From: Algibacter amylolyticus
GTDB taxonomy: Bacteria; Bacteroidota; Bacteroidia; Flavobacteriales; Flavobacteriaceae
Length of the DNA: 64,000 bases
Direction of reading: 5' to 3'
Assembly: GCF_014202225.1 (NCBI RefSeq)
Contig: NZ_JACHGE010000003.1
Span: 335,121-399,120, forward strand
This document shows, one piece after another, positions 9,845 to 49,902 of this stretch; position 1 is the stretch's first letter, and each line of letters starts with the position of its first letter. Below the pieces are notes generated by a model. That model was not told the origin of the DNA and ran no database searches. It was given only the letters and a program-made list of their open reading frames with translations. The position numbers and the translations under genes were made by a program.

Positions 9845-11140
9845 CTAGTCTTCATCATCTAATTCCTCATCAACAGGGCAACAACGGTATTCCTGAGATT
9901 TTTCTAGTAGTTCTACTTGTTTCTCCAACAATTTATTTCGAAGTTTTTTATGTTCAAGATCTAACTTTATTTCTTCCATTAAGCCCTCTTCACAAACATT
10001 ACAACTATCCAAACAGCCTTTTACTACAACACCTGCCGTAGGAATAGAAGTTTTATACTCAAAGGAAAATTCGGCAATGGTTTGTTCTGTAGTTCCACCG
10101 TCTTTGGTTAATATATTTGCTGCTATCAAATTATTTTTAACGTTTTCTAATGCTTTTACACGAACGTTTTCTGATAGCGGTTGAATAACACTATATCTTG
10201 AGTTAGATGCTACATATGCAGCCGAATAGCGTAAGTTATTATCGTTATTAATGGCTTTTATTTCTTTAATTTTTTCAGGTAGTTTACTTGAAGTCGCTAA
10301 AACTGCTGTTGGCACTACAGAGAGTTTTGCATTTGTTAAAATTGGCTTATTTACCACGCTACTAGGTGTTGCCTGATCAATAACACGAGTTTTAATAGTT
10401 TTGATACTTACTTTTGTAGTTTGCTGTTTATCTACTTGATAAAACAAGTAACTTACCGAATGGCATCTATTTTCATTATGGAAGGTTCTACTACTGCTTT
10501 CTACATGACTTTCACTTTCTCCTTCGGCATGGGTTTTAGTAGATACTTCTCCTACCTGAATAGCGCTCGATTCTCGAGTCATTTGTATGGATTTATTATG
10601 GCTCGCCTCGGCATGAATGCTTAATTCGCGCATAAAATCTTTAGTTGAAGAGGCATCAAAACTACCAGAAATTGTTGCAGATGGACCATTTACTATAGTT
10701 CCTAGAAGTCCGCTTGTAGAGGCATCAGTACTAGCGCTTCCACTATTGGATGTACTGGAATTAATATCTTCTCGACTATCCAAATCGGACATAAATTTCT
10801 CGTATGAGTCTAAATAATACTGTTCTTCTGCAGATTGCTCATGTCTGTAGGATAATTGAGTTTCGCTATCAAAAGAAAATCTGGAGCGACGATCTTGTGT
10901 GTATAAGCGCACTTTTTCTCCTGGTAATAAAGTGGTACTGTACACTAAATTACCTAACTGTAAAGGGCCCGAACATCTTTCAACCCTTACATGTAGTGCT
11001 ACTTCAACAGGTACTCTTTGCGATTGGTTGTCCAACTTTACATCGGTGTAATGGGTTAAGCGGTACACAAAATCTAAGTAATCACATGTTTTGCCGTCTG
11101 GTAATTCCGGACAACACCCATTCTTGTTTTCAACTTTCAT
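9845..11140 (-). CDS. Unrecognised 431-residue protein next to tail sheath/tube genes
   Basis: No family is recognised. There is no signal peptide or membrane segment. Cysteine pairs sit at both ends (GCC near residue 9; GCLDSCNVCEEG near 385; a final YRCCPVDEELDDED). Residues about 45-120 look like a compact conserved domain (VEVALHVRVERCSGPLQLG, LLPGEKVRLYTQDRRSRF, QLSYRHEQSAEEQYYLDSY). Residues 120-180 are Ser/Gly/Thr-rich and probably flexible, and residues about 390-425 form a charged coiled coil. It has its own excellent promoter (11248-11278) and a terminator, so it is transcribed apart from the lipase gene upstream. A structural or regulatory partner of the tail-like module is possible but only inferred from position. 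Confidence 0.7.
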   Translation of the reverse strand: MKVENKNGCCPELPDGKTCDYLDFVYRLTHYTDVKLDNQSQRVPVEVALHVRVERCSGPLQLGNLVYSTTLLPGEKVRLYTQDRRSRFSFDSETQLSYRHEQSAEEQYYLDSYEKFMSDLDSREDINSSTSNSGSASTDASTSGLLGTIVNGPSATISGSFDASSTKDFMRELSIHAEASHNKSIQMTRESSAIQVGEVSTKTHAEGESESHVESSSRTFHNENRCHSVSYLFYQVDKQQTTKVSIKTIKTRVIDQATPSSVVNKPILTNAKLSVVPTAVLATSSKLPEKIKEIKAINNDNNLRYSAAYVASNSRYSVIQPLSENVRVKALENVKNNLIAANILTKDGGTTEQTIAEFSFEYKTSIPTAGVVVKGCLDSCNVCEEGLMEEIKLDLEHKKLRNKLLEKQVELLEKSQEYRCCPVDEELDDED

Positions 11141-11388: not shown

Positions 11389-13764
11389 TTACTCAAATTT
11401 TAAAAGGTTATCTAGTTTTTTTACAACCTCTGAAGGATCTTTTAGGCGTTCTTCAAGCGATCTTACTGCATCGATGCTTAAATATCTACCTAACGGTATT
11501 AAAGGTTTGAATAATGTATCACTTCCAGGATTTGGTAAGGATGTTCGTTTGGATTCTATACGATAACAGTCTGGATGAGAATTAATAAACTCATCGGCGT
11601 GAGCAAATATAGCATTAACAGCCATTTGAGCTGGTGAAGTAAGCTGGCTGTAATAATCTATCGCTTCGTTTTTGCTTTCTGCTTCGCTATTATTAGTAAT
11701 TATAAGATGTTTAATTTTGTATTTCCCTTGTAAAAGCGAATCCTTAGTTAAACCTTTTATTAGTGCCGCTTCAAGGTAATTGGTAACGGTTCCTCCAATA
11801 TTGTCGTAATAACCGCCATCGCCAAATTGTCCAATGCCAGAAACCCGACCATTTGGGCTTAAATAAGGAAATCTAGCGGTTAACAACATGGCAGCCGATC
11901 GTTTTATCATTTTTGAGCTTTCATTCTTTTTTGCATATTCTGAGAGCAGATCGTTAAATCCCGACTCGCGAGGTTTAGTGGTATTAAACTTAACCGGACT
12001 CATTAGATATAACTGCCCTGTTTGCACATGGGTGGTTGTAGTTACCATTATAGGTGGAGTAAATGTACCCCCTTTTTTAGGCATAATGTCTAAATACGGT
12101 CTTTTTAGTAAACCCACATTAAACAAGGAATCGAAAGTGGCTTCCCATTCGGTTTCTGTTATTTTTCCTCGGTCTAGATAAAAGTTTAAATGAAGAATAC
12201 TTGCCACAATATCTCTACCTAAAAGTCCTGCAACAGACGAAGAAATATAGTCTTTTTGATAAAATACGCTAGCCTTATAATAAAAATCGTTTTCGTTTAA
12301 AATACTATCGCTTTCTTGTGCTAAAAATAGATTGTTCTGGTAGTTGTCTTTATTAGCATACGCCTGAATATAAAACATATTACTACCCACGCTACCTCCC
12401 GAAGCTCCTGTTATAGAAAAAAGGTGTTTCTTAAAATAATTTTCATTTTTGCCATATAAATAACTGTGTACTAAAAAAGTCCAAAGACCTGCTCTTGAAC
12501 CTCCGCCTTCTGCCGAAACTAAAACAATAGGAAATGGCGCTTTATTAGTAGCATTTAAAATGTCTTGTCTTCGCTCTAAAATGTATTGATCTACGTAAGT
12601 TTCAAGGTTTAAACGACTGTCTGGATGAATGTTTTCTGAATCTACAGTACTAACTTCATAATGTGTAAAACAATTACTTTTTGCCACAAAAACGGTCATT
12701 AAAATAGAACCAAAAAATACGATTGTTAAAATGGGCCATTTCTTTCTTTTGCCATATAAATTTAGTCCTAAAAAAATGGTGTACTGCCCAATAATACACA
12801 CCATAATTATAACCATTGGTGTTAAGTATTTTAAATAATGTAATTCCGGATCAATAAGCATTACAATATACATAAGCACCATACTAAATGTAAAAAGATA
12901 GGCCAATGGAATGCCATAGTTTTCCTTAAACCAGAGAATTTTTTCGTTATACGAAATACTAAAAACAAAAAACAATACACTTAAACAGGCCATAGACCAG
13001 AACAAATTTTTAATATCTTGTTCGGTGCCTCCAATGTTTACAAAACCTAGTATTAAAATTATAGCCAAGGAAATGGCCACTATAATTATGGGTAACCACT
13101 TTCTGTTCGATTTCCATTTTAAAACCCCCTTTAGGAACATGCCGAGTCTTGGGTTTGTTATTGCTACTAAAAAAAGGGTTAACAATAAAAAGAAATACTT
13201 AAAGGTTATATACTCGCCAAACAAGTGGTAGTAGGTGTTTTCTACTGAAAAGGTAATACTTAAAATCATAAAAATACCTAGTATTTTGGTATACATCCTT
13301 TCCACATAAATTTTAGGATCTTCGGTCAACTCATCAATGATTTTATTGTGAATTTGACTATTGGGATTTGGTGAAACATTACTTTTTTCAATGCTTATTT
13401 CTTTAGAATCCTTAGGGTTAATGGCTTTAACAACTTTTCTGCGTAGCCTAATGTCTTTAGATGCTATGCTGCCATCAGCTTCAGCTTTAAAACTCTTTTT
13501 AACTGATTCAATTTTAATTAAATTACCGTAACTAATAAGTAAGCCCATTACTAAAATGGACGTATAAAAAATAGGCATTACTATAAAATCGTTATGGTCT
13601 TGTAGCTGTATGATTACAACTGTAAGATCACTTAGGTGAGGCATTCTGAAAATAACAAATAGAACAAAAACAAATACTAAAGGAAATGCATGTTTTATAA
13701 TGGCGTGTATTAAGTATTTAAGCCATTGAGAAAAACTTGTTTTATTTTTATGGTTAGTTTCCAT
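11389..13764 (-). CDS. Polytopic membrane protein with patatin-like phospholipase domain
   Basis: 791 residues in two parts. Residues 1-365 hold about eight or nine hydrophobic segments (roughly 26-40, 62-80, 160-178, 188-203, 224-243, 252-270, 286-304, 315-335, 344-361) with a charged loop at 85-155. Residues 410 onward form a patatin domain: oxyanion-loop EGGGSRAG at 419-426, nucleophile elbow GASGG with Ser455, and catalytic Asp649 in FGDGGYYDNIGG. All elements of the Ser-Asp dyad are present, so lipid acyl hydrolase activity is expected. It starts four bases after the stop of the exported protein gene upstream, implying cotranscription. The side of the membrane on which the lipase sits cannot be fixed by eye. 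Confidence 0.85.
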   Translation of the reverse strand: METNHKNKTSFSQWLKYLIHAIIKHAFPLVFVFVLFVIFRMPHLSDLTVVIIQLQDHNDFIVMPIFYTSILVMGLLISYGNLIKIESVKKSFKAEADGSIASKDIRLRRKVVKAINPKDSKEISIEKSNVSPNPNSQIHNKIIDELTEDPKIYVERMYTKILGIFMILSITFSVENTYYHLFGEYITFKYFFLLLTLFLVAITNPRLGMFLKGVLKWKSNRKWLPIIIVAISLAIILILGFVNIGGTEQDIKNLFWSMACLSVLFFVFSISYNEKILWFKENYGIPLAYLFTFSMVLMYIVMLIDPELHYLKYLTPMVIIMVCIIGQYTIFLGLNLYGKRKKWPILTIVFFGSILMTVFVAKSNCFTHYEVSTVDSENIHPDSRLNLETYVDQYILERRQDILNATNKAPFPIVLVSAEGGGSRAGLWTFLVHSYLYGKNENYFKKHLFSITGASGGSVGSNMFYIQAYANKDNYQNNLFLAQESDSILNENDFYYKASVFYQKDYISSSVAGLLGRDIVASILHLNFYLDRGKITETEWEATFDSLFNVGLLKRPYLDIMPKKGGTFTPPIMVTTTTHVQTGQLYLMSPVKFNTTKPRESGFNDLLSEYAKKNESSKMIKRSAAMLLTARFPYLSPNGRVSGIGQFGDGGYYDNIGGTVTNYLEAALIKGLTKDSLLQGKYKIKHLIITNNSEAESKNEAIDYYSQLTSPAQMAVNAIFAHADEFINSHPDCYRIESKRTSLPNPGSDTLFKPLIPLGRYLSIDAVRSLEERLKDPSEVVKKLDNLLKFE

Positions 13765-13768
13765 ATAT

Positions 13769-15784
13769 CTATTTCTTTTTGGTTTCCTCCTCCTCTGCAG
13801 GTATGGGCTTTTTTGATTGAAACTTATCTACAAATGAAGTTAAATTAGTGGCGTATCCTACCATGAATTGAGGGTATATACTATTTGTATCGGTATGGAA
13901 ATAAGAACCTAATTTTGCATATACACCACCAACAGAAGTTTTTGGATTAGTAAGCCAATAGAAGTTAGCTTCTAGGTTAATTATATTATATGGCATAGAT
14001 AAAAAATGGTCTTTACCTGTATTTGATAGTAAAGTTTTTGAAAAAGAAAGTTCATTAATGGTATCATCTCCAGCATAATTTAAATCTTCTAGACTAAATG
14101 TAATATCTGCACCAAAATTAGATTGTGGTCTTATTTCAAAATTTAAATAAGGGCCGTGAGCAACAGAAAATAGTTGTTTGGTAAAGATTTTATCTTCTTC
14201 ATTATCTACAATATTAGTTAATTTAAAACCAGTTCTATAAAAGCCAGCGCTATAACCAAGTCCTATGTTTGTAAAAAAACCTTTGGCTTCATGCGTTAGT
14301 ACTTCTAAAGATAGTTTACCATATAAATTGTTTTTTCGCAATAAATCGAAATTATTAAATTGCTCTTCATCTTTAATATTTATAAACCGGTTTTCGTCAT
14401 CGAAGCTATTTTGCATTGAAAAATTTGTAACCGCTGTAAACTGCCTTATGGGAGTAAGTTTCGATATATTTCTTAAATTTAATGGCATTAATATTCTCGC
14501 TTGAGCATTAACTAAAGAATTTGGAGATTCGGTATTAAACCCCATAAGATCTGAATAAATTATAGCCGTAAAAAAATCGAAAAAGCGTCTTTCTTCTATT
14601 TTGACTTTATGTGTACTTTTGCCTTCTGTTTTAAATAAAACCTTTTTATCGTTGGCGACTGAGTAACTATATGAATCTTTATAATTTAGAAAATCGAAAA
14701 TATCATTGTAATCTATCTCTATTTTTGTTCTTTGACCAAAAACATCTTTTTCTGGCATAAATGTAGAAACTCTACTTCCGTAAATATTAAAATATCTAAT
14801 AGGTACAGAAAACTCTGAATTAATAAAAATTAAATCTATGCTTTCATTTAGCTCTGCTCTAATTTTTATTGTTGCAGCCTTGTTATTAAAAAATTGGACC
14901 GTTGCAGACGTTACTTTTAAATTTCCCGTTCCGTTCGATGTTTCACTTTTGAAATCCTTACAGCAATACTTGCTGCTTTCGGTACGTTGCGATAGTACTT
15001 GATAATACACCAAAGTGGTATTTTTAAATATTTCCTTTATAGTTTCATCTTCAATAAAAGCTTTTTTTCCTTCTTCAGCTTTAATGATTAAATATTGGTA
15101 CATGGTCGATTCCCTATCTAAAGCCATAAAAGCGGCTTCATCTTTTGTGCTTAAATTTTGAATGTTATTATTTATTAAAGATTCCTCATTTAGCTGTTCT
15201 TTTAACTTCTTTAACTTTAGTTTATAATGCGTTATTTGATAAGGTATATTCTTATCGATATTCAGAATTAATTGGCCCGAGTAATTATCTTCAGCTGTAT
15301 CAATACTTCTTAAAATATTTTTAGCTTCTGAAAGTTCTTTACGAATTTCCTTTTCATCATGAGTCTTTACTTTTTCAAGAATTTTTTGAATAGAATCATT
15401 GTATTGTGTTCCTACAGGTGAAGATTCTGATATTAAATCTATTCCAAATTCGTTTTTTAAATTCAATTTTACCGCAAAAACAAAAGTTTCGGGATCCATA
15501 TCTTTTAGATATTCAACAGACTTTTTACAATCATCCGATTTACAAATTTGCATGTCGAATGTAGCGTCTTTAGAGTCTATTCTAAATTCAAATATGGAAT
15601 CTTCAATTTTAAGTGTCTTTATTAACGTTAACTTGGTTTGAGCCTTAGGCTTTTCTGCTTCGGCAATTGGTTCCTTTTGTGACTCTGATTTTTGCTCTTC
15701 TGCAACTGTTGTATCATTGCTGCCTTGACTAAAAAGAATATTACATAAAGAAAAAAGGATAAAAGTGAATAGCTTGGTTTTCAT
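13769..15784 (-). CDS. Exported 671-residue protein of unknown function
   Basis: Residues 1-20 are a signal peptide (MKTKLFTFILFSLCNILFSQ, cleavage after SQ likely). A Lys/Glu/Thr-rich segment follows, then a long helical part (about 130-260) and, from about 270 to the end, many alternating aromatic/polar strands (for example GKLSLEVLTHEAKGFF, FLSMPYNIINLEANFYWL, FMVGYATNLTSF) that look like an outer-membrane beta structure. The C-terminus is a short Glu/Lys tail. No family is recognised. It lies 213 bases after the sheath stop and is joined to the patatin gene (four-base gap). Envelope location is inferred. Confidence 0.72.
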   Translation of the reverse strand: MKTKLFTFILFSLCNILFSQGSNDTTVAEEQKSESQKEPIAEAEKPKAQTKLTLIKTLKIEDSIFEFRIDSKDATFDMQICKSDDCKKSVEYLKDMDPETFVFAVKLNLKNEFGIDLISESSPVGTQYNDSIQKILEKVKTHDEKEIRKELSEAKNILRSIDTAEDNYSGQLILNIDKNIPYQITHYKLKLKKLKEQLNEESLINNNIQNLSTKDEAAFMALDRESTMYQYLIIKAEEGKKAFIEDETIKEIFKNTTLVYYQVLSQRTESSKYCCKDFKSETSNGTGNLKVTSATVQFFNNKAATIKIRAELNESIDLIFINSEFSVPIRYFNIYGSRVSTFMPEKDVFGQRTKIEIDYNDIFDFLNYKDSYSYSVANDKKVLFKTEGKSTHKVKIEERRFFDFFTAIIYSDLMGFNTESPNSLVNAQARILMPLNLRNISKLTPIRQFTAVTNFSMQNSFDDENRFINIKDEEQFNNFDLLRKNNLYGKLSLEVLTHEAKGFFTNIGLGYSAGFYRTGFKLTNIVDNEEDKIFTKQLFSVAHGPYLNFEIRPQSNFGADITFSLEDLNYAGDDTINELSFSKTLLSNTGKDHFLSMPYNIINLEANFYWLTNPKTSVGGVYAKLGSYFHTDTNSIYPQFMVGYATNLTSFVDKFQSKKPIPAEEEETKKK

Positions 15785-15997: not shown

Positions 15998-17524
15998 TTA
16001 AGATTCTTCCATATCTTGTTCTATCCTAAAAATTATAAACTCTGCTGGCCTGATAATTGAAACGCCTACCAAAATTATCATTTTACCTTCTAAAATATCT
16101 CGAGCAGTCATTGTTTGTCCTAAACCTACTTGAACAAAATATGCTTTCTCTGGCTGAGAACCAACAAAAGCACCATCACGCCATAGCGCTTTTAAATAAT
16201 TCGAAATCATGTTTTTAACAGCACCCCATGTAGTAGTATCATTCGGTTCAAAAACAAACGGCTTTAAACCTGTTTTAATAGATTTTTTTACATGAAGAAT
16301 GGTACGATGGACGCTTACATAACGATATTCATTACTATTACCAGCTAAAGTTCGCGCACCCCAAACAAGAGTGCCTCTACCTGTATAATAATTTATCGCA
16401 TTTATAGATTTTCCTGAAACAGCATCGACATTTAAAAGCTCTTGTTCTACCCTAGATAATTGTACCGTTGGTTTTATAACAGAATTTACAGATACGCCGG
16501 CAGGAGCTTTCCAAATACCTTTGTTATTATCTGTGGCAACATAAATTCCTGCTATGGCGCCACATGGAGGAATACGGTTTTTTAAAACCTTAACAGCTTT
16601 AATAATGGATTTATATGTTAAGCAAACGGATAACAACGCTATATGCAGGTTATGCTTAATATCTGCTGTAATATCATTTATTTTAAGATGTTCATCAATT
16701 ATATCGTTGGCTCTATTTTCTGGTAATAATTGTTTTAACTCATCTAATTGAAGATTAATATCTAGGAAAGTGGGGTCACTCCTATCAATATTCGCTTCTA
16801 ACCATGGATAATATACAGCGCCGAATTTTAAATTTTGAGTCCCAATTTGCCCTCTAAAATGTGTAATAACATCAGTAGTTGCTTGTCCTACTATTTGTTT
16901 TTGAAAACCATTATGAATATCCAAAACAGCAAAACGGTTACCCATTTCGAAACAGTGGCTTAGCATCTCTTGATAAACTTGATAGCATTGCACCGAAGGC
17001 AGATTTACAGCATCTGGAATAACTATAATGGTAGGCTCAATATAGTTTTTGAGTGCATTTAAGCCACCTTCTAAAATATTGCCATTTACGATTTTGGTAC
17101 CTAATAAATCATCAGCATCAGCAGTAACAGATGAGGTATCACCATAAGTTCCTACCGAAACAATATAGCAGTCCTTACCTCCATTATCGTAAAAAAGCTT
17201 TATACTTGGAAACATATACGCTTTGTGATTAGGCACATAATCCACTACTTTTTTACCACTTTTAACTTTAATAGGTATACCAGAACCATTTGGTAGCGGA
17301 TCTAAAATATCAAATTTAGAATTAAAACCTACTCCAAATACGCTAACATACTCAGCAAAAGATCTGATTTTTGTAGGTATATTTAATACGGATTCCTCGT
17401 TTATTGAAGCCTTTTCAGTGTAGCCAATAAAAGCCGGAACAGCAGTTGGTAAATCTGAAATTGAGTGAAGCAAAGAGTTTTGCTCCTGAATGTATACTCC
17501 TGGGTATCGTAAAATTGCAGCCAT
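15998..17524 (-). CDS. Contractile tail sheath protein
   Basis: 508 residues. The N-terminus ILRYPGVYIQEQNSLLHSI and the C-terminal segment with ILVGVSIIRPAEFIIFRIEQ are the hallmarks of phage-type sheath proteins (Phage_sheath_1, subtilisin-like fold), which also form the sheath of extracellular contractile injection systems, R-type pyocins and related devices. The TGRGTLVWGARTL segment near residue 375 is another family landmark. It follows two tube genes (39-base gap). Only one sheath gene is present, whereas Photorhabdus-type clusters carry up to three. Confidence 0.92.
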   Translation of the reverse strand: MAAILRYPGVYIQEQNSLLHSISDLPTAVPAFIGYTEKASINEESVLNIPTKIRSFAEYVSVFGVGFNSKFDILDPLPNGSGIPIKVKSGKKVVDYVPNHKAYMFPSIKLFYDNGGKDCYIVSVGTYGDTSSVTADADDLLGTKIVNGNILEGGLNALKNYIEPTIIVIPDAVNLPSVQCYQVYQEMLSHCFEMGNRFAVLDIHNGFQKQIVGQATTDVITHFRGQIGTQNLKFGAVYYPWLEANIDRSDPTFLDINLQLDELKQLLPENRANDIIDEHLKINDITADIKHNLHIALLSVCLTYKSIIKAVKVLKNRIPPCGAIAGIYVATDNNKGIWKAPAGVSVNSVIKPTVQLSRVEQELLNVDAVSGKSINAINYYTGRGTLVWGARTLAGNSNEYRYVSVHRTILHVKKSIKTGLKPFVFEPNDTTTWGAVKNMISNYLKALWRDGAFVGSQPEKAYFVQVGLGQTMTARDILEGKMIILVGVSIIRPAEFIIFRIEQDMEES

Positions 17525-17562
17525 TATTTACATATTTACTTTAATTTAAATAGTATTTTGTG

Positions 17563-18051
17563 CTATAATTTAGGCTTCTTTAAAATAGGGATAAATGGTA
17601 ATTTTATTGGCGATAATTTAAAAGGTGCAATAACTTCTCCTTTATTATTTAGAACCTTAAAACGTTGATATTCTAGCTCTACGGTTTCTATTAATATTTT
17701 AGTGTCTTGGGCATGAAGTTCTTCAACACCCCAAGCTACAGGTAAGGCTTTTTCTATTTGCCAGCCACTTATAATCTCATGGTCGGCATTAAGCAAATTA
17801 ACGGTTAAGTTTGTGGCTTGTTTGATATTGTTATTAATAGCATCCATACACCAAGCCACTAAATTAGAATCCGGTTGATAAGCACGTTTTAAAACAAGAT
17901 TATCATATTTAACCTGCTTTTTGCCTTCGTTTTCAATAATTCGAGCTTGAAGTCCTTGAACCGATTGAAAACTAACATCGTTACTAAGTGTCTTACTGTG
18001 AAAATGAACAGCAAAGTGCATATTTAATGGAGGATAGTTAATTTTTGCCAT
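17563..18051 (-). CDS. Tail tube protein (gp19-like), second copy
   Basis: 162 residues with the layout of T4 gp19-like tube proteins: an initial strand region, VKYDNLVLKRAYQPDSN, an LTVNLLNADHEIISGWQIEKALPVAWG block and ILIETVELEYQRF. It is more divergent than its neighbour and has a basic/proline tail of about 25 residues after the core. Pvc1- and Pvc5-type paralogues in injection systems differ in a similar way, one building the shaft and one the junction to the baseplate; which is which here is unknown. Gap of two bases to the upstream tube gene. Confidence 0.85.
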   Translation of the reverse strand: MAKINYPPLNMHFAVHFHSKTLSNDVSFQSVQGLQARIIENEGKKQVKYDNLVLKRAYQPDSNLVAWCMDAINNNIKQATNLTVNLLNADHEIISGWQIEKALPVAWGVEELHAQDTKILIETVELEYQRFKVLNNKGEVIAPFKLSPIKLPFIPILKKPKL

Positions 18052-18053
18052 AA

Positions 18054-18488
18054 CTAATTACCTAAACGTTCCATTATAAAACCTTCATGCGCCAACTCCA
18101 AAGTTTCAATAAGAATCTCGCTTTTTAGCGCATTGAGTTCGGAGAAATTAATTTCTATAGGCCATGCATTTTTAACTTTCCAAACAATACTTGGTTCGTG
18201 TTGATGATTTAATAGCTTTATTGTTATATCGCGTTTCTCAACAATTAATCCAATATTATTAAACCAACTAAAACTTGTGTTATCGTCTTTTAATGCACCT
18301 CGTTTTAATACAATGTTCGAATACTTTTTTAGTCCTGGTATTTTAATTGGACTATAAGTCGGATCTGCACCACTTCTATATTCTAAAATTTCATGTTTGG
18401 CTTTAAGACCACTTATTTCAGAAAAACCACCAATCATATCACTAAAATCAACACTAAAATGAAAATTTACTACGGGTTCATTACTCAT
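18054..18488 (-). CDS. Tail tube protein (gp19-like), first copy
   Basis: 144 residues. GGFSEISGLKAKHEILEYRSG, then IKIPGLKKYSNIVLKRG, ITIKLLNHQHEPSIVWKVKNAWPIE and EILIETLELAHEGF reproduce the conserved order of the Pvc1/gp19 tube family. It is the first gene of the tube-tube-sheath set. An inverted repeat AGTATT-AG-AATACT lies 59 bases upstream (18547-18560) and might be an operator; no full promoter was recognised. Confidence 0.9.
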   Translation of the reverse strand: MSNEPVVNFHFSVDFSDMIGGFSEISGLKAKHEILEYRSGADPTYSPIKIPGLKKYSNIVLKRGALKDDNTSFSWFNNIGLIVEKRDITIKLLNHQHEPSIVWKVKNAWPIEINFSELNALKSEILIETLELAHEGFIMERLGN

Positions 18489-42725: not shown

Positions 42726-45700
42726 TTATCGTTTTAAAGTAAAATGTCCGTTAAATGCTCTATGTTTATCGCTAAATGTTTCTTTAAATTCTATGGTGAA
42801 CCAATAATCTGAAGTTGGCATGACTTGGCCTTTAGCCTTTCCATCCCACCCTATTCCGTAAGGATTTAATTGATTTAAAAGCTTTCCGTAACGATCATAG
42901 ATATAAATGTAGACATCGGTTTGAAATTCTCTTGAAATACCTTTAGGAAGCCATGTATCATTATAAGAGTCATCATTGGGTGTAAAGAATTTTGGAATAC
43001 TAATTACCGAAATTCTCTCGTGTACAACACCACAGCCGTTTTTATCTCTAACATAAACAGTATGCAGTCCACCTTCTAATCTAGTAAACGCATTACTTTC
43101 TTGATATGGGCCATTTTCGCTATCTAAAGCATACTCATAGTCGCCTTCCCCTGAAACATAAACCGTTAGACTATTAATGTCTAAAGCATCTTGAATATCG
43201 ATACTTTCTATTGTCGCAATATTGGAAGGTAAAACGGTTATAGCGCGGCTTTTTGAGCATCCATCTGTACTCGTAATATCGACATTATACACGCCTATTT
43301 CATTAATTTCTATAGTAGGCGTTTGCGCTCCCGTACTCCAATTGTAGATATAATTGCTAGGTGAATCGCCAATTATTCCGCTCTCTAAAGTCATAGTATC
43401 TGGATATGTATTTAAACAATAAATAACCGATTCATCGGCTTCAATATTTGGAAGATCGTTAACAATTAATAGAACCTCATCTATTCCAAAACAGCCATCT
43501 GAATTTTCTACCCGAGTATAAATAGTTTGCGAATATGGTTCTATGTTGGCATAAGTAGTGTTTAGCGGATTTTGTTGATTAAAAGCATCATTATAAGATT
43601 CGTAATACACCACTTGAGTATTTGAAGGCAATCCAAAAGTTACCTCGGTATCTGCTAGACTTAAATTAAAAGTATTAAAACCATCCTTGGAGTCTAATTC
43701 ATCACAAAGCTCTAGAATAGCTGGATTAGGATCAATAAAACTGCCATTTAGGGTAAACGTAGCAGAATCAAAACATCCTGTATCTTTATCTACAACTTTT
43801 ACATAAACCACTTGCGGATTTGTAGTGTTTGTAAATGGCGATGTTTGTTCTCTTACATCGTTGTCCAAATCATCTTGCGATAAGTAAAAATGCGTGGTTA
43901 CGTTGTTGTTGCTATTGGTTAAATCGTCATCGTAATCGTGTAAATTAAACTGCATAATTCCATCGGCAGCGTTGTAATAATCGCATTCTGTAATTATTGT
44001 TGGTACAACTTCTGGTAAAGGCAATTCTTTAACCTCAACATTAAACGTGTCGGTACAACCCTTACTATCTATAAGCGTTACACTGTAAGTTCCCGCCGTA
44101 TCTACTTCTATACTTTGAGTGGTTTCTGAAGTGCTCCATAGGTAATCATCGTAATCTGATCCAATATCTAAAACGACAGAAGTTCCGGCACAAAAAGTTG
44201 CTTCTGTAAGTGTTGGTGGTGTAATATTAATGGTTTTTATTCCGAAGGATGTAATATTATCACATTTATCTGGTGCTGAAACTCGAACATAAACTGTTTG
44301 AGCATCTGGAGTTGTGTTTTGATGCGCCGTTGGATTTGAAATCTCGTTCTGTTCTAGATTAGCATCACTTCTGGAGTTGTAATAGCGATACACTGCATTA
44401 GCTTCGGTAGATACTAAAGCTTCAAAACTTGTTAAGTCGAAAATGGTGTAGGTGTCTAAATCATCATCACAAACTTCAAGAACATCGGTAACCACATTTA
44501 CTTGAGCATCTTCTCTATGGCTGACTTCAACTGAAGCTATGTAGGCACATTCTAAGCTATTTTCTACTCTAACAAACACATTATGGTTGTTATTTGGAAT
44601 GGTATAGTTTCCAGAAATAGCGTCTGTTTGGGTTTCTGCATTGGTTAAAGAGGTATAATATTCGAAAGATAAACCTATAACGTTAGTAACTACCAAAGAA
44701 TTTAATTCTGTTAAGTTGAAGCTATAATCACCATCAAAATCTGTGTCGCAAATTTCGTAGGTATTATTGGTAACAACTTCAAAACTACTATTAAGGGTTA
44801 ATGTTGTAGAGTCAAAACATCCCGTATCGTTATCTACAACTTTTACATAAACCACTTGCGGATTTGTAGTGTTTGTAAATGGCGATGTTTGTTCTCTTAC
44901 ATCGTCATCCAAATCGTCCTGCGACAAGTAAAAATGCGTGGTTACGTTGTTGTTGCTATTGGTTAAATCGGCATCGTAATCGTGTAAATTAAACTGCATA
45001 ATGCCATCGGCAGCGTTGTAATAATCGCATTCTGCAATAGTTGTTGGTACAACTTCTGGCAAAGGCAATTCTTTAACCTCAACATTAAAGGTGTCGGTAC
45101 AACCGTTACTATCTACCAGAGTTATACTGTAGGTTCCAGCCGTATCTACCTCTATACTTTGAGTGGTTTCTGAAGTGCTCCATAGGTAATCGTCATAATC
45201 TGCACCAATATCTAAAACAACAGATGTTCCGGCACAAAAAGTAGCTTCTTTAAGTGTTGGTGGTGCAATGTGAATGGTTTTTATTCCGAAGGATGTAATA
45301 TTATCGCATTTATCTGGTGCTGAAACTCGAACATAAACTGTTTGAGCATTTGGATTAATATTTTCGTGAACCGTAGGATTTAATATTTCGTTTTGCTCTA
45401 AATTAGCATCGGTTTGATTGTTATAATATCTAAACGTCGTTCCAGTTTCCGTAGTAAACAAGGTCGTAAAATCTGTTAAATCGAAAAACGCATAATTATT
45501 TAAATCATTATCACATACTTCCATGATTTCGGTAACAACTTCAACAGAAACAGACGTTTTAATACTTATAGTTACCGTGGTTATAGATTTACAACCAAAC
45601 TGATTTTTTACGTGAATGTAAATGATATGATTATTACTAGGAATAGCATAATTAGAAATATTAGTAATCCCATCATCTTCCGCTTCGGCAACCGCCATAC

Positions 45701-48700
45701 TAGTGTAGTATGTAAACTCTAAATTGGTTTGATCTTGAATAATTAAAGGATTTAAAACTGTTAAATCTAGTGTGTAAAACCCATCAAAATCGGTGTCGCA
45801 AATTTCATAAGAACTTTCAACTAGTTTAGGCGTAGCTAAAGCTTTTAGTACCACTTTACCAATGGAAAAACAGCCTGTAGCTAAATCATCAAATCTAACA
45901 AATATGTTATCAGACTCCGATGCTGTGTTGTGATTTTCGGGTGTTAAAATCAGGAAACTAGCATTTTCTGTTTCTGCACCAACTTCATCAGAATAATAAC
46001 TTATGGTTAGTCCTGTGGTATCTGCCAACATATCTGGAATTGCGGTGGTTAAATCGAATTCTTCAGATAGGTTATAATCATCATCACAAGCTGTTAACTC
46101 GGTATCTTGAACCGCTACAGGAAATGTAAAATCCAATGCCATTTCAGCTATTGAGAAACAACTAGTAAACCTATTAGTAACGCGAACAAAAACACTTTGT
46201 GGTACCGATGTAATTAAGTAGTTAGATGATATGGCTCCCGAATTATTTATCGCATTACTTTCAGACCTAAAATATCTGAACGTATGATTTTCAGGGTCTG
46301 CTACAATATCACTATTACTTAAGGTTAAGTTATAGCGTTCTTCCCCATTGGTAAAATTATCGCACACGGTAACGCTAATATCTGAAACCACGGGAGCCGA
46401 TTGCAAAGTAAAGTTAATGGCTCCTACGGTATTACAATCATCTGGTGCTGCTAGATTTACAAAAAGCTCTGTTGTATCTGTTATTGTAGATTCTGTAATA
46501 GGATCACTTAAAGCATTGGCATTACTTAAAGAATTATAATACGTAATAGTAACTCCGGGTTGAGACCCTAAAATTTGAGAATTAAATTGCGATAAACTCA
46601 CGTTGGTTTCGATACCGTTATTTTCAAAATCGCAATACGTTATTTCATCATTTCTTATTTCGGGAACAGGCACAATAGATAAACGAATTCGAGATGTTGT
46701 ATAACAGGTAGTTGCAGTGTCGTACAACCGAACATAAACTGTTGTGTTGGTAGATACCGGATGTGATGTTGGATTTGCAATTTCGTTGGCAGTGTCGCCT
46801 TGTTGTGCTTCAGCTAATGTTGGATAATAGGTAGCCGTATAGTTTAAATAATCGGGTGTAATATCGGGTAAAGCATCGTTTAAATCGAATAGCTCTTTAC
46901 TATTATTATCCGTATCGCAGGCTTGAAGAGTAGCATTACTGGTGGCTACTCTTGGATGAAATGATAGAGTAATTGTCGTTTCTGTGGTACAACCATCTGG
47001 CGTTGTTACAAAAACATTAATTATGCGTGTTGGTCCTACAACGGTAAACGTAGTTGGATTATTTATGGCTGAACCATAGGTATACTCATAAGCAAATGTT
47101 GCACCAGGCTCTGTAGTAATATCGGTCTCGTATTGGGTTAAATCATGGACTTCTCTATTGTTGTAAAATTCATCGCAAATAGTATCTGTAACCGCGTTTA
47201 AAAGTATGGTAGATTGAAAATCTAATGTCACTTCTACTACGGTATAATCTTCTTCATCACCTTCAAAAACCAAAGCAATTCTTGCATAAATTACGGTTGC
47301 TGTTGTAATATTAATTTGCGTTATAGGATTAATAACAGTAGCACTATTAGCATCAGATTCTAAAACATGATAAGTAACTTCCATGTATTGTGCATCATCA
47401 TAACCGGCTATTAAATCATCATCAAAATCACTTAAGGTAACCAGTTCTTCCGAATCGTTAGCGCTATCACAAACTTGAAAATCACCATTTCCGGAACCAA
47501 CAAAACCAACAAACTCTAAAAGGATATCGCCTATTGTAATACAACCCGAAGCCGTATTAGTAAATACTACAAAAACTTCAGTTTCTGGATTTGTTACCGC
47601 AAAATTAGCTGGGTCTGAAACTAAACTACTTGGATCTTGAGTTTGGGCACCTGCAAGTGTATCGTAAAATTGATAAGTTATCCCTGTTAAATCGGCAACC
47701 ATATCATTTACAGAATTGGTTAAATCGAAAATAGTACCCGAACTTACCTGTGTATCATTCTGCACGGTAACCCCTTCTATATAGGTGAAGTTTATTGGAT
47801 AAACCTCCACACAGCCTGCACTTGTGTATGTTCGCACCCAAATACTGCTTACACTATTTAAAACATAGGTTGCAGGATCTATTGGGTTTGATGGATGCGC
47901 GGGATCGAAAGGATACAGGTTTCTATCGGCCCACGATTCATATAAATGATAACTGAAGTTAATGACTTCGGTGTTGTTAGCTTGCACATCGCTTTCATGT
48001 TGGGTTAAATCATAGATAGCTATGTTAGAACATAATGTAACTGGAATAGGTTCTACAACAGGAACTGGAAAAAGAACAATAGGAATTTCTTCTAGGTTAG
48101 GACAGGTAGCATCTGGTTGCAAAGTGAATCTAACAAAAACAGAATCGCCATTGGCCGCTGTTAAGCTTGTAATTGGAAATGCATTACTATCCGCATTATC
48201 GCGAGTAGCATGATAGGAGATATTAACTCCCGTTTGCCCTCCTATTATCTGGCTCGTGTAATTTGCAAGGTTTATAAACTCAGAATTATCATTAGCTACA
48301 TCGCAAAGGGCTATTCTAGATAATTGGCTAGTTCCTAATTCTTCTAAACTTATACTTAAAGTCCCAACATCAAAACAGCCCACACCACGTTGAAGTCTTA
48401 CATATATAGTTTCATCCGGATTTGTAAGTGCATAGGCATTAGGATTTAATATCGGATTATTTTCTAATCGAGCATCGGCTAAATTATTATAATAACTTAA
48501 TACTAATCCGGTTTGCGTGCCTACCATTAAAGCATCGTAACTTGTTAAATCAATAATTTCGGTACCTATAACATCTACATCGCAAACTACAGTATTATTA
48601 TCAATAGCAATAGGAAACAAAAGGTCAATTTCAACATCAATCGTGTCTTGTAAAACAATATCTGGACCAATACACATATCGTATGTAACGGTAGCTGTAT

Positions 48701-49637
48701 ACGTTGTTGTTTCTTCTGGACAAATAGTAATTTGATCGCCTGTTCCAATAAGCACATTACTTGCGTTTCGCCACTGTACATTTGTTACTGGCGTACCATT
48801 GGGCGAGAACCTCCAAGCTTCGTTAGTGGTGCTCCAAACACTGGTGTTCCTATCTACAGGAGTTGTAGCTACAGTTCCATCTATATTCTGAATACCAATA
48901 AGTGCGTTTTTTCGATAATCAGCCGAGGCACTAGTTTCGCAGTTTAATGGCTTTTCTGTTATGTAAACTTCTATAATATTTGAACCCTCGTATAAAACAA
49001 TTTGTGAAGTCGATCGACTAACTTCGCAATTAAAATGATTTAAATTTTCGTAACTAATAACAAATGCTCTTGAAGGCGCCGTACCTATTGTGTACGTTTT
49101 TATCTCTCCACATTCATTTTCTGGTGTTCCCGGATCATCTGTACAACCAAATACATTATTATCGTTAGTTAAATCGTGGTAAGCACCAAAAATAGCGTTT
49201 GTTGGCATAGAAGCATTTGGTATACTACCAGCAAAAAATGGACTATCGGCAAGTGCTAAAGCAGTATTAAAGCTAATTATTCCATTGTCTCCTATTAACA
49301 GTTGGTTATAGCCCTCGGTGTAAAAACAAAAATCGAAAGGCATGGATAAAACGGCACTCCATTTATCATCGCCAGAAATACTAACTAAAGTTTCGTTTGT
49401 TAAGCCTGTTAAATTAGTAAAAGGAATAGCGTTTACCTCATAAGATGTAGTTTCGCTAATTACGGTGTAATTGGCTTCTAACTCGAAACACCTATCGGCA
49501 TTTACAGGATAATCGCAATCTACAAAAACAGCATCTCCACCTTGGCTATCGGTAACCTCGATATAAGGCGAGTTATCTTGAGAAAATGAAAAAAAGGGAA
49601 TAAAGAGCAGTACTAAAAGGGGAAATCTTAACAGCAT
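42726..49637 (-). CDS. Giant secreted repeat protein with T9SS type B C-terminal domain
   Basis: The ATG at 49637 gives 2303 residues and a clean signal peptide (MLLRFPLLVLLFIPFFSFSQ); the 40-residue longer frame start is rejected because it hides that signal. The first ~330 residues form a globular domain (ends near FSPNGTPVTNVQWRN). Then about 20 divergent modules of 80-100 residues follow, each with a C-D-x-D-x-N/D start, F-D-L-T, a YY segment, a NP-x-x-Y/H run and VYVRV before a Cys, in the style of Bacteroidota adhesins. Two WSTSETTQSIEVDTAGTYS blocks lie in a 348-residue tandem duplication. The last ~95 residues (SIPKFFTPNDDSYNDTW to GHFTLKR) match the type IX type B sorting domain and resemble the end of the protein at 1-2074. 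Surface adhesin or matrix role inferred. Confidence 0.9.
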   Translation of the reverse strand: MLLRFPLLVLLFIPFFSFSQDNSPYIEVTDSQGGDAVFVDCDYPVNADRCFELEANYTVISETTSYEVNAIPFTNLTGLTNETLVSISGDDKWSAVLSMPFDFCFYTEGYNQLLIGDNGIISFNTALALADSPFFAGSIPNASMPTNAIFGAYHDLTNDNNVFGCTDDPGTPENECGEIKTYTIGTAPSRAFVISYENLNHFNCEVSRSTSQIVLYEGSNIIEVYITEKPLNCETSASADYRKNALIGIQNIDGTVATTPVDRNTSVWSTTNEAWRFSPNGTPVTNVQWRNASNVLIGTGDQITICPEETTTYTATVTYDMCIGPDIVLQDTIDVEIDLLFPIAIDNNTVVCDVDVIGTEIIDLTSYDALMVGTQTGLVLSYYNNLADARLENNPILNPNAYALTNPDETIYVRLQRGVGCFDVGTLSISLEELGTSQLSRIALCDVANDNSEFINLANYTSQIIGGQTGVNISYHATRDNADSNAFPITSLTAANGDSVFVRFTLQPDATCPNLEEIPIVLFPVPVVEPIPVTLCSNIAIYDLTQHESDVQANNTEVINFSYHLYESWADRNLYPFDPAHPSNPIDPATYVLNSVSSIWVRTYTSAGCVEVYPINFTYIEGVTVQNDTQVSSGTIFDLTNSVNDMVADLTGITYQFYDTLAGAQTQDPSSLVSDPANFAVTNPETEVFVVFTNTASGCITIGDILLEFVGFVGSGNGDFQVCDSANDSEELVTLSDFDDDLIAGYDDAQYMEVTYHVLESDANSATVINPITQINITTATVIYARIALVFEGDEEDYTVVEVTLDFQSTILLNAVTDTICDEFYNNREVHDLTQYETDITTEPGATFAYEYTYGSAINNPTTFTVVGPTRIINVFVTTPDGCTTETTITLSFHPRVATSNATLQACDTDNNSKELFDLNDALPDITPDYLNYTATYYPTLAEAQQGDTANEIANPTSHPVSTNTTVYVRLYDTATTCYTTSRIRLSIVPVPEIRNDEITYCDFENNGIETNVSLSQFNSQILGSQPGVTITYYNSLSNANALSDPITESTITDTTELFVNLAAPDDCNTVGAINFTLQSAPVVSDISVTVCDNFTNGEERYNLTLSNSDIVADPENHTFRYFRSESNAINNSGAISSNYLITSVPQSVFVRVTNRFTSCFSIAEMALDFTFPVAVQDTELTACDDDYNLSEEFDLTTAIPDMLADTTGLTISYYSDEVGAETENASFLILTPENHNTASESDNIFVRFDDLATGCFSIGKVVLKALATPKLVESSYEICDTDFDGFYTLDLTVLNPLIIQDQTNLEFTYYTSMAVAEAEDDGITNISNYAIPSNNHIIYIHVKNQFGCKSITTVTISIKTSVSVEVVTEIMEVCDNDLNNYAFFDLTDFTTLFTTETGTTFRYYNNQTDANLEQNEILNPTVHENINPNAQTVYVRVSAPDKCDNITSFGIKTIHIAPPTLKEATFCAGTSVVLDIGADYDDYLWSTSETTQSIEVDTAGTYSITLVDSNGCTDTFNVEVKELPLPEVVPTTIAECDYYNAADGIMQFNLHDYDADLTNSNNNVTTHFYLSQDDLDDDVREQTSPFTNTTNPQVVYVKVVDNDTGCFDSTTLTLNSSFEVVTNNTYEICDTDFDGDYSFNLTELNSLVVTNVIGLSFEYYTSLTNAETQTDAISGNYTIPNNNHNVFVRVENSLECAYIASVEVSHREDAQVNVVTDVLEVCDDDLDTYTIFDLTSFEALVSTEANAVYRYYNSRSDANLEQNEISNPTAHQNTTPDAQTVYVRVSAPDKCDNITSFGIKTINITPPTLTEATFCAGTSVVLDIGSDYDDYLWSTSETTQSIEVDTAGTYSVTLIDSKGCTDTFNVEVKELPLPEVVPTIITECDYYNAADGIMQFNLHDYDDDLTNSNNNVTTHFYLSQDDLDNDVREQTSPFTNTTNPQVVYVKVVDKDTGCFDSATFTLNGSFIDPNPAILELCDELDSKDGFNTFNLSLADTEVTFGLPSNTQVVYYESYNDAFNQQNPLNTTYANIEPYSQTIYTRVENSDGCFGIDEVLLIVNDLPNIEADESVIYCLNTYPDTMTLESGIIGDSPSNYIYNWSTGAQTPTIEINEIGVYNVDITSTDGCSKSRAITVLPSNIATIESIDIQDALDINSLTVYVSGEGDYEYALDSENGPYQESNAFTRLEGGLHTVYVRDKNGCGVVHERISVISIPKFFTPNDDSYNDTWLPKGISREFQTDVYIYIYDRYGKLLNQLNPYGIGWDGKAKGQVMPTSDYWFTIEFKETFSDKHRAFNGHFTLKR
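43740..45830 (-). repeat. 1044-bp tandem duplication inside the giant secreted protein gene
   Basis: Two in-frame copies, 43740 to about 44780 and 44784 to about 45830, offset by 1044 bp (348 codons). The stretch 43750-44340 against 44794-45384 is nearly identical, whereas the remainder of each copy has diverged. Confidence 0.85.
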
Positions 49638-49902
49638 TAAAAATTCTTTATGAGGGATAAACAATTTAATATGATAAACTACCGAAAAAACACCCATAAG
49701 TTTTACCCCTGTAAATCCTTTTCCGTTAATTGATTTTAAAATTATATAAAAAAGCACCCATGTGCAATATTACCCGTTGTAACGCATAAAAAACAAGTCA
49801 CTACGTTTAGCCTTAAACCTGCCGATTCTGGATATTTTCTAAAATAAAATGAGCTAGAAAATATATAAGTACTAAAACTAGCAGATCAGTAAATGCTTTA
49901 AA

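Follow-up and report, generated by a model that had tools for sequence, protein, structure and literature searches.

A gene cassette for the tube, tube initiator and sheath of a contractile tail in Algibacter amylolyticus, with no baseplate or spike match in the genome and a same-order counterpart in another genus

Results

Three contractile-tail genes at one locus

We analysed a 64,000-nucleotide stretch of the Algibacter amylolyticus genome (contig NZ_JACHGE010000003.1, positions 335,121 to 399,120; the whole stretch is hereafter called the window) and report here on a cassette of three genes related to those of contractile injection systems (CIS). The three open reading frames (ORFs) are all uninterrupted and lie on the minus strand within the interval 15998-18488:

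18054..18488, minus strand: tube1, main protein of the inner tube (Cis1/Alg1/Pvc1 type) and first in the cassette; 144 amino acids (aa); PF06841 at 3.1e-36
17563..18051, minus strand: tube2, of the tube-initiator type (Cis5/Alg5/Afp5), with a C-terminal tail; 162 aa; PF06841 at 4.9e-23
17914..17934, minus strand: place in tube2 (residues ~40-46) where alignments put an absent 13-residue loop, the GGENRF-type motif of other initiators
15998..17524, minus strand: contractile sheath (Cis2 type), last gene of the cassette; 508 aa; PF17482 at 6.6e-12

ORF calls, the labels given by home-made hidden Markov models (HMMs) and the split between tube1 and tube2 were mechanical, and Cis1, Cis2, Cis5 and similar labels for gene positions follow what we take, in part, to be current usage. 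The family matches of the cassette are far above chance. Both tube proteins exceed the cut-offs of Pfam Phage_T4_gp19 and of NCBIfam TIGR02241, and the 508-aa ORF exceeds that of Phage_sheath_1C, with Phage_sheath_1 as a weak match below its own cut-off; PHROGs agreed with Pfam for all three genes, as did NCBIfam for the two tubes. Among solved structures, the best matches were chains of AlgoCIS for tube1 (7adz_1a, 9e-47) and tube2 (7aeb_Y, 6.7e-26), while the sheath was closest to 9r9h_T (1.9e-111), an entry that we tried without success to link to an organism or paper, followed by the AlgoCIS sheath 7adz_2A (3.8e-96). Since the initiator of a complete cluster in a relative, G036, also matches 7aeb_Y (1.6e-74), the cassette consists of a tube, a tube initiator and a sheath rather than of two equal tubes and a sheath. 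The initial annotation of this DNA, which had described two intact gp19-type tube genes and a sheath gene on the minus strand, was therefore right in coordinates and families, but its second tube is of the initiator type and not a copy of the first. Transcription runs tube1, tube2, sheath, as against sheath, tube, initiator in complete loci such as that of G036.

The base composition of the cassette carried no clear foreign signature (G+C 0.31-0.35 in its genes, 0.25-0.37 in the surroundings). A scan of the DNA found 28 promoter-like sites against 20.9 +/- 5.4 expected and three terminator-like sites against 1.7, and was not used for the reading that follows. Comparison of sheath, tube1 and tube2 with phages and viral contigs ruled out a phage or prophage origin: none of the 257 matching phage records covers 80% of the window sheath, tube1 reached only 27-28% identity with six Streptomyces phage records, the viral contigs encode no close relative of tube2, and their nearest sheaths are 37% identical to that of the window. 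On plasmids, the sheath was matched in 123 records (with 80% or more of its length covered in 17) and tube2 in 29, all below 60% identity. PADLOC returned no match.

No baseplate or spike match in the source genome

The source genome (G000) comprises 4.35 Mb in 25 contigs and is 99.99% complete. It holds one sheath-family match and two tube-family matches, all of them within the cassette, and on this ground we reject a second complete tail locus, the finding that the initial annotation had named as one that would refute its proposal. ORF calling with home-made HMMs, applied to 84 kb (the window plus the 20 kb on its left), labelled no gene of the LysM, VgrG, gp25, gpJ, PAAR or gene-after-gpJ type, in agreement with the earlier observation that the flanks lack baseplate and spike genes. 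Profiles for gp25, gpJ and VgrG, built from 10-11 relatives, likewise gave no match at E <= 0.1 anywhere in G000, the ATPase, the terminator and LysM not being part of this genome-wide search. The same profiles found their targets in five, five and seven, respectively, of 12 genomes (G000 included), and G036, G020 and the genome of locus L056 were positive for all three. The Pfam gp25 model PF04965 gave only two matches in G000, both far below cut-off (E 0.53 and 0.65). The gpJ and VgrG screens covered those 12 genomes, G000 among them and G210 not, and the gp25 screen covered 397 genomes of the family, taken as in the initial annotation to be the Flavobacteriaceae, which fits some of the named relatives; G476 and G453 (see below) lay outside every baseplate-gene screen.

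The locus thus shares with CIS a sheath homologous to theirs, an inner tube and a tube initiator, whereas the searches of G000 yielded neither baseplate components (gp25/Cis9, gpJ/Cis11) nor a VgrG-type spike (Cis8). Because neither baseplate nor spike, two features that define a CIS, was matched, we class the cassette as a CIS-derived core without a baseplate, and not as a CIS.

The same cassette between housekeeping genes in another genus

All comparisons used one genome per species. Taking the sheath and gp25 screens, which agree in size and handles, as one and the same draw, we found a sheath in 71 of the 397 family genomes and gp25 in 58. As many as 18 of the 71 sheath-bearing genomes had no gp25 match, three of them (G056, G196, G238) with weak or partial sheath matches only; therefore, the state of G000 is not that of one odd genome.

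The closest parallel came from another genus. G210, a single contig of 4.51 Mb, carries tube1, tube2 and sheath (locus L222) in the non-canonical order of the window, with identities to the window of 71.5% for tube1, 63.6% for tube2 and 49.6% for the sheath. The tube2 proteins of the two loci lack the same 13-residue loop and have C-terminal tails that begin alike, and this combination of loop deletion and tail is also found in L284. The flanks of the G210 cassette were read by eye as acyl-CoA dehydrogenase and oxidoreductase genes. There was no gp25 match in the G210 genome and no other CIS part was labelled in the 60 kb around the cassette, gpJ and VgrG not having been searched there. In G476 the cassette sits at the same genomic place, between flanks 94-95% identical to those of G210, and its products are 90% (tube1), 94% (tube2) and 87% (sheath) identical. 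Ratios of nonsynonymous to synonymous substitution (dN/dS, NG86) between these two genomes were 0.15 for tube1, 0.07 for tube2 and 0.18 for the sheath, and 0.05, 0.06 and 0.16 for three flanking genes; values of 0.07-0.18 indicate purifying selection on the cassette there. A same-order cassette in a second genus, together with the empty gp25, gpJ and VgrG searches in a nearly complete genome, supports the earlier suggestion of a reduced contractile assembly.

A sheath match was found in seven of 68 genomes of the genus of G210. Among its members, G506 and G486 have full-looking CIS loci, G491 has a locus where VgrG was labelled and gp25 and gpJ were not, and in G487 the sheath match is weak and partial. 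G453 has a sheath, with its contig ending 8 kb from the other side of that gene, and no tube match genome-wide.

Dispersed tubes and sheaths in relatives

Tubes were searched for in 24 genomes, most of them picked for a sheath without adjoining tubes and including G000, G002, G210, G476 and the control G036; 13 had a tube match and 11 had none. G226 and G391 each carry a single tube away from the sheath, seemingly at the same housekeeping locus (a likeness judged by eye), the two proteins being 60% identical with a dN/dS of 0.27 at a dS of about 1.1. A tube1-tube2 pair lies away from the sheath in G243 and in G326, the latter having another initiator beside its sheath, and a single tube away from the sheath was found in G387, with other tubes so placed in G053, G307 and G397.

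In the tube1 tree, G000, G210, G476, G326, G243, G226, G391 and G387 form one set made up entirely of stand-alone tubes (Shimodaira-Hasegawa-like approximate likelihood ratio test, SH-aLRT, 86). Five of these eight genomes have tubes away from the sheath, and none of the seven that were screened had a gp25 match, G476 lying outside that draw. In the tube2 tree, G000, G326, G210 and G476 group together (SH-aLRT 98) and are joined by G243 (90), while the sheath of the window pairs with that of G226 (92), with G210 near but its position not settled by the tree. As most genomes that contributed stand-alone tubes were picked for having no gp25 match, the trees show kinship and not frequency.

Several other loci of the survey deserve mention in their own right. 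A second sheath clade within the family (SH-aLRT 100) consists of small loci (L223, L226, L227, L232, L237, L238 and, in G053, L034/L035), several with a Pvc16-like or 276-aa-type gene but without a labelled gp25 or gpJ of their own; a penicillin-binding-type protein adjoins the G053 locus. The Algoriphagus loci L062, L064 and L071 are lone sheaths in a gene neighbourhood common to the three genomes; nothing within 10 kb of them was labelled as a tube or baseplate gene, and the genomes of L062 and L071 have no tube match. Stand-alone sheaths in G243 (L225:8338-10502) and G391 (L231:8732-11034) are followed by the same two small genes, one of 148/152 aa that looks lipoprotein-like by eye and one of 107 aa. 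In G425 (L234:9268-10836), whose genome has neither a tube nor a gp25 match, the stand-alone sheath ORF starts with a stretch that resembles a signal peptide by eye, the start codon having been called mechanically; an exported sheath would be very odd. Finally, a 413-aa protein in G397 (L281:8177-9415) combines a CIS_tube domain (PF19266) with an AAA ATPase domain (PF00004) and adjoins a tube1-tube2 pair, the sheath of that genome being on another contig.

Altered tube initiator and sheath

From 170 tube-like proteins, 77 were classed as initiators, and the 69 of these under 180 residues were used to follow the loop that tube2 lacks. Where the locus has VgrG, 54 of 58 initiators carry the GG-N motif of this loop; where it has none, four of 11 do (Fisher p = 8e-5, uncorrected for kinship). 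Of the four that keep the motif with no VgrG at the locus (L057, L058, L238, L281), L058 lies on a contig of only 3.5 kb, the genome of L057 has VgrG elsewhere and that of L238 (G389) has gp25 elsewhere; the motif is absent despite VgrG in G065, L086, L099 and L125. AlphaFold2 predicted an ordered tube fold for the window tube2 (mean predicted local distance difference test score, pLDDT, 87); at the site of the loop, a short turn connects strands 36-41 and 44-49.

The sheath alignment held 109 sequences: 70 from complete loci, 26 from stand-alone loci and 13 in neither group, which were dropped. Residues R406 and E413 are invariant in all 70 complete-locus sheaths and kept in 17 and 20, respectively, of the 26 stand-alone sheaths; the window has H and K at these positions. 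At 106 near-invariant positions, the window sheath departs from the consensus residue in 15 and that of G210 in 13, and 68 of the 70 complete-locus sheaths do so in nine or fewer. Taken together, the loop and sheath changes would fit either a new role or relaxed constraint, and the dN/dS values favour a new role.

A deletion in a sister species and the neighbouring genes

In G002, a species of the same genus as G000 in which the surrounding genes are 85-99% identical, one internal deletion has removed ~2 kb, so that residues 45-61 of tube1 now adjoin the C-terminal 102 residues of the sheath. The junction implies that the cassette was present in the common ancestor, in the same order and at the same place. 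The surviving piece of sheath has a G000/G002 dN/dS of 0.28, a value that also includes the time since the deletion. Nine other genomes of the genus were searched, G002 yielding this fragment only and the other eight no sheath match.

Downstream of the cassette lie three genes, none of them assigned to a family:

13769..15784, minus strand: 671-aa protein whose N-terminus looks signal-like by eye; context, probably not part of the system; dN/dS against G002 0.19
11389..13764, minus strand: 791-aa protein with several membrane-type segments and the patatin-like motifs GGGSRAG, GASGG and DGG (by eye); context, perhaps part of the system; dN/dS against G002 0.095
9845..11140, minus strand: 431-aa protein, no family assigned; context, probably not part of the system; dN/dS against G002 0.084

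The 671-aa protein, present in three of ten genomes of the genus (one of them partial), had no Pfam, PHROG or NCBIfam match. For the 791-aa protein there was no Pfam, PADLOC or solved-structure match, and for the 431-aa protein no Pfam or PHROG match, each having a single NCBIfam match far below cut-off (E 0.078 and 0.056, respectively). All three genes have remained constrained in G002 after loss of the cassette, so they do not need it. A homologue of the 791-aa protein lies two genes from the lone sheath in G226 (lone-sheath locus L224), in a region that has other genes in common with the window. The G326 sheath has a protein with motifs of this kind three genes away, which phmmer with the 791-aa protein did not recover. 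We also considered a common neighbour gene as a missing partner of the cassette, and rejected it: the 431-, 671- and 791-aa genes were not labelled beside the G210 and G476 cassettes, and the 431-aa protein of the window did not group with the proteins of ~420-430 aa encoded close to other stand-alone sheaths. Elsewhere in the window, positions 42726-49757 (minus strand) encode a 2343-aa protein with a type B sorting domain of the type IX secretion system (TIGR04131).

Discussion

Stripped-down tail genes that remain under selection in relatives suggest that the core of a contractile tail has been taken into a new use, and the cassette is probably not just a dying leftover. The reading that we favour, with moderate confidence, is that it represents a domesticated, baseplate-free core of a CIS related to AlgoCIS, whose products would form a tube-sheath polymer. 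Tube, initiator and sheath would co-assemble in the cytoplasm, the sheath around the tube, to give a rod resembling a rhapidosome. Polymerisation would proceed without a baseplate, the rod being nucleated by the altered initiator or arising spontaneously. Rather than driving a spike into another cell, it might act inside its own, for example as a filament with a structural role or as a contractile device triggered by stress.

A number of observations weigh against this reading. The polymer is predicted here from the genes, and single deletions of baseplate, tube or sheath-initiator genes of the Photorhabdus virulence cassette (PVC) are reported to prevent particle production (PMC12210884), which makes assembly without a baseplate unexpected for a CIS. 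The cassette is dispensable, given that no sheath was matched in eight of the nine other genomes of the genus and that G002 retains a fragment only. The 15 departures of the window sheath could also mean relaxed constraint. Kinship was not corrected for in the loop count, and five of the seven loop-less initiators at loci without VgrG belong to a single set of the tube2 tree. Other stand-alone tubes fall elsewhere in the trees, with eight changes of label in the tube1 tree and six in the tube2 tree. Stand-alone parts also turn up in genomes with a complete cluster. One is G036, where the initiator of a separate tube pair (L285) lacks the motif; another is the genome of L057. In the latter (Aquiflexum sp. 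TKW24L; G100, contig C88) the stand-alone genes run sheath-tube-tube with no baseplate genes labelled beside them, and the complete CIS, with tubes and a sheath of its own, is on another contig.

The alternative that fares best, improbable as we consider it, is a functional injection machine with its baseplate and spike genes at other loci, too diverged or too unrelated for our searches. In relatives, tubes and sheaths are indeed encoded apart from each other, and L223, L233 and L250 keep VgrG with no gp25 or gpJ labelled nearby. Yet the gp25, gpJ and VgrG profiles, positive in the control genomes, were empty in G000; a quarter of the sheath-bearing family genomes share the lack of a gp25 match; and the window initiator has lost the loop that nearly all initiators beside VgrG retain. 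The idea of a device spread over several loci, raised in the initial annotation, was thus not borne out in G000 for the parts searched, although the dispersal of tubes and sheaths in relatives is real.

Slightly less probable still is decay, in which a once complete CIS is being lost and these are its last genes to remain intact. The deletion in G002 would agree with such a history, as would the sheaths of G226 and G453 without adjoining tubes (and, in G453, without a tube match in the genome) and the tendency of stand-alone sheaths to depart from near-invariant positions more often than complete-locus sheaths do. However, the three frames of the cassette are intact, G210 and G476 share its gene order and loop deletion at a different site in the genome, dN/dS between those two genomes is low, and random decay would not leave the identities of tube1 and tube2 across genera. 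The proposal that the cassette forms one system with its envelope neighbours (the 791-aa patatin-like and the 671-aa proteins), for instance as a self-killing or defence device, seems very unlikely: despite the shared strand and adjoining position and the similar proteins near the G226 and G326 sheaths, of which that in G226 does point the other way, the neighbours persist under constraint in G002 (dN/dS 0.08-0.19), the G210 and G476 cassettes lie between housekeeping-type genes without them, PADLOC gave no match and phmmer missed the G326 protein, so that the tie to adjacent envelope proteins drawn in the initial annotation was not upheld.

Returning to the domesticated core, a broader and more tentative extension is that autonomous tube-sheath polymers occur across the family, as CIS tails minus baseplate and spike whose genes are scattered among housekeeping genes and whose products might serve as an intracellular filament or contractile rod. 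Some lineages would then have retained the sheath only, with the G425 sheath as if exported, and such polymers might be the source of rhapidosomes in gliding Bacteroidota. If tubes do form without a baseplate, the cassette would offer a minimal natural system in which to study how sheaths assemble and contract, and might also give genetic access to the long-standing question of the nature of rhapidosomes. We found no account of baseplate-free or stand-alone CIS tube or sheath genes in the literature, in a search that left subscription journals mostly outside. Published surveys are described as requiring many core genes together (PMC8213781, PMC12210884), and a cassette of this kind would consequently go unlisted; filters of this sort would miss stand-alone and dispersed tails.

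The type VI secretion system (subtypes i-iii) has a two-part TssB/TssC sheath; the sheath of the window is one 508-aa protein of the CIS/phage type. Among the closest known systems is AlgoCIS, the extracellular CIS (subtype Ib) of Algoriphagus machipongonensis, whose tube, initiator and sheath are homologous to those of the window (7adz_1a, 7aeb_Y, 7adz_2A), and in which the Alg5/Alg7 initiator complex is described as connecting the tube with the spike Alg8 (PMC8894135). It differs from the window in gene order, in the lack of gp25, gpJ and VgrG matches in the window genome and in the loop that the window initiator is missing. The complete cluster L056 of Algoriphagus sp. PAP.12 has the best-scoring sheath among the best 80 loci of a contig scan. 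Homologous tube, initiator and sheath proteins are also found in the thylakoid-anchored CIS of Anabaena (All3323-All3325), which we take to be PDB 7b5h. The Anabaena system includes a baseplate as well as a membrane anchor; for the window cassette neither was found, gp25 and gpJ being the parts searched for.

Cytoplasmic CIS of Streptomyces occur as free particles that mediate cell death under stress, according to PMC10066040, and may share a mode of action with the product of the cassette, although the Streptomyces particles are fully assembled from a gene cluster. A precedent for assembly from few parts is provided by polysheaths and polytubes, in which a sheath or tube protein alone is stated to assemble into tubes (PMC6357053, PMC6466441), the phage sheath protein by itself giving long ones (PMC6357053). 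These are phage proteins expressed in the laboratory, whereas the cassette consists of conserved chromosomal genes. Rhapidosomes, reported in 1967 from Chondrococcus columnaris (a title cited in PMC4094633), are cytoplasmic tubular structures of various bacteria for which a link to extracellular CIS has been suggested (PMC8910223). The relevant passages of that source name no gene for them, and a match with the product of the cassette, tempting as it is, would be conjectural.

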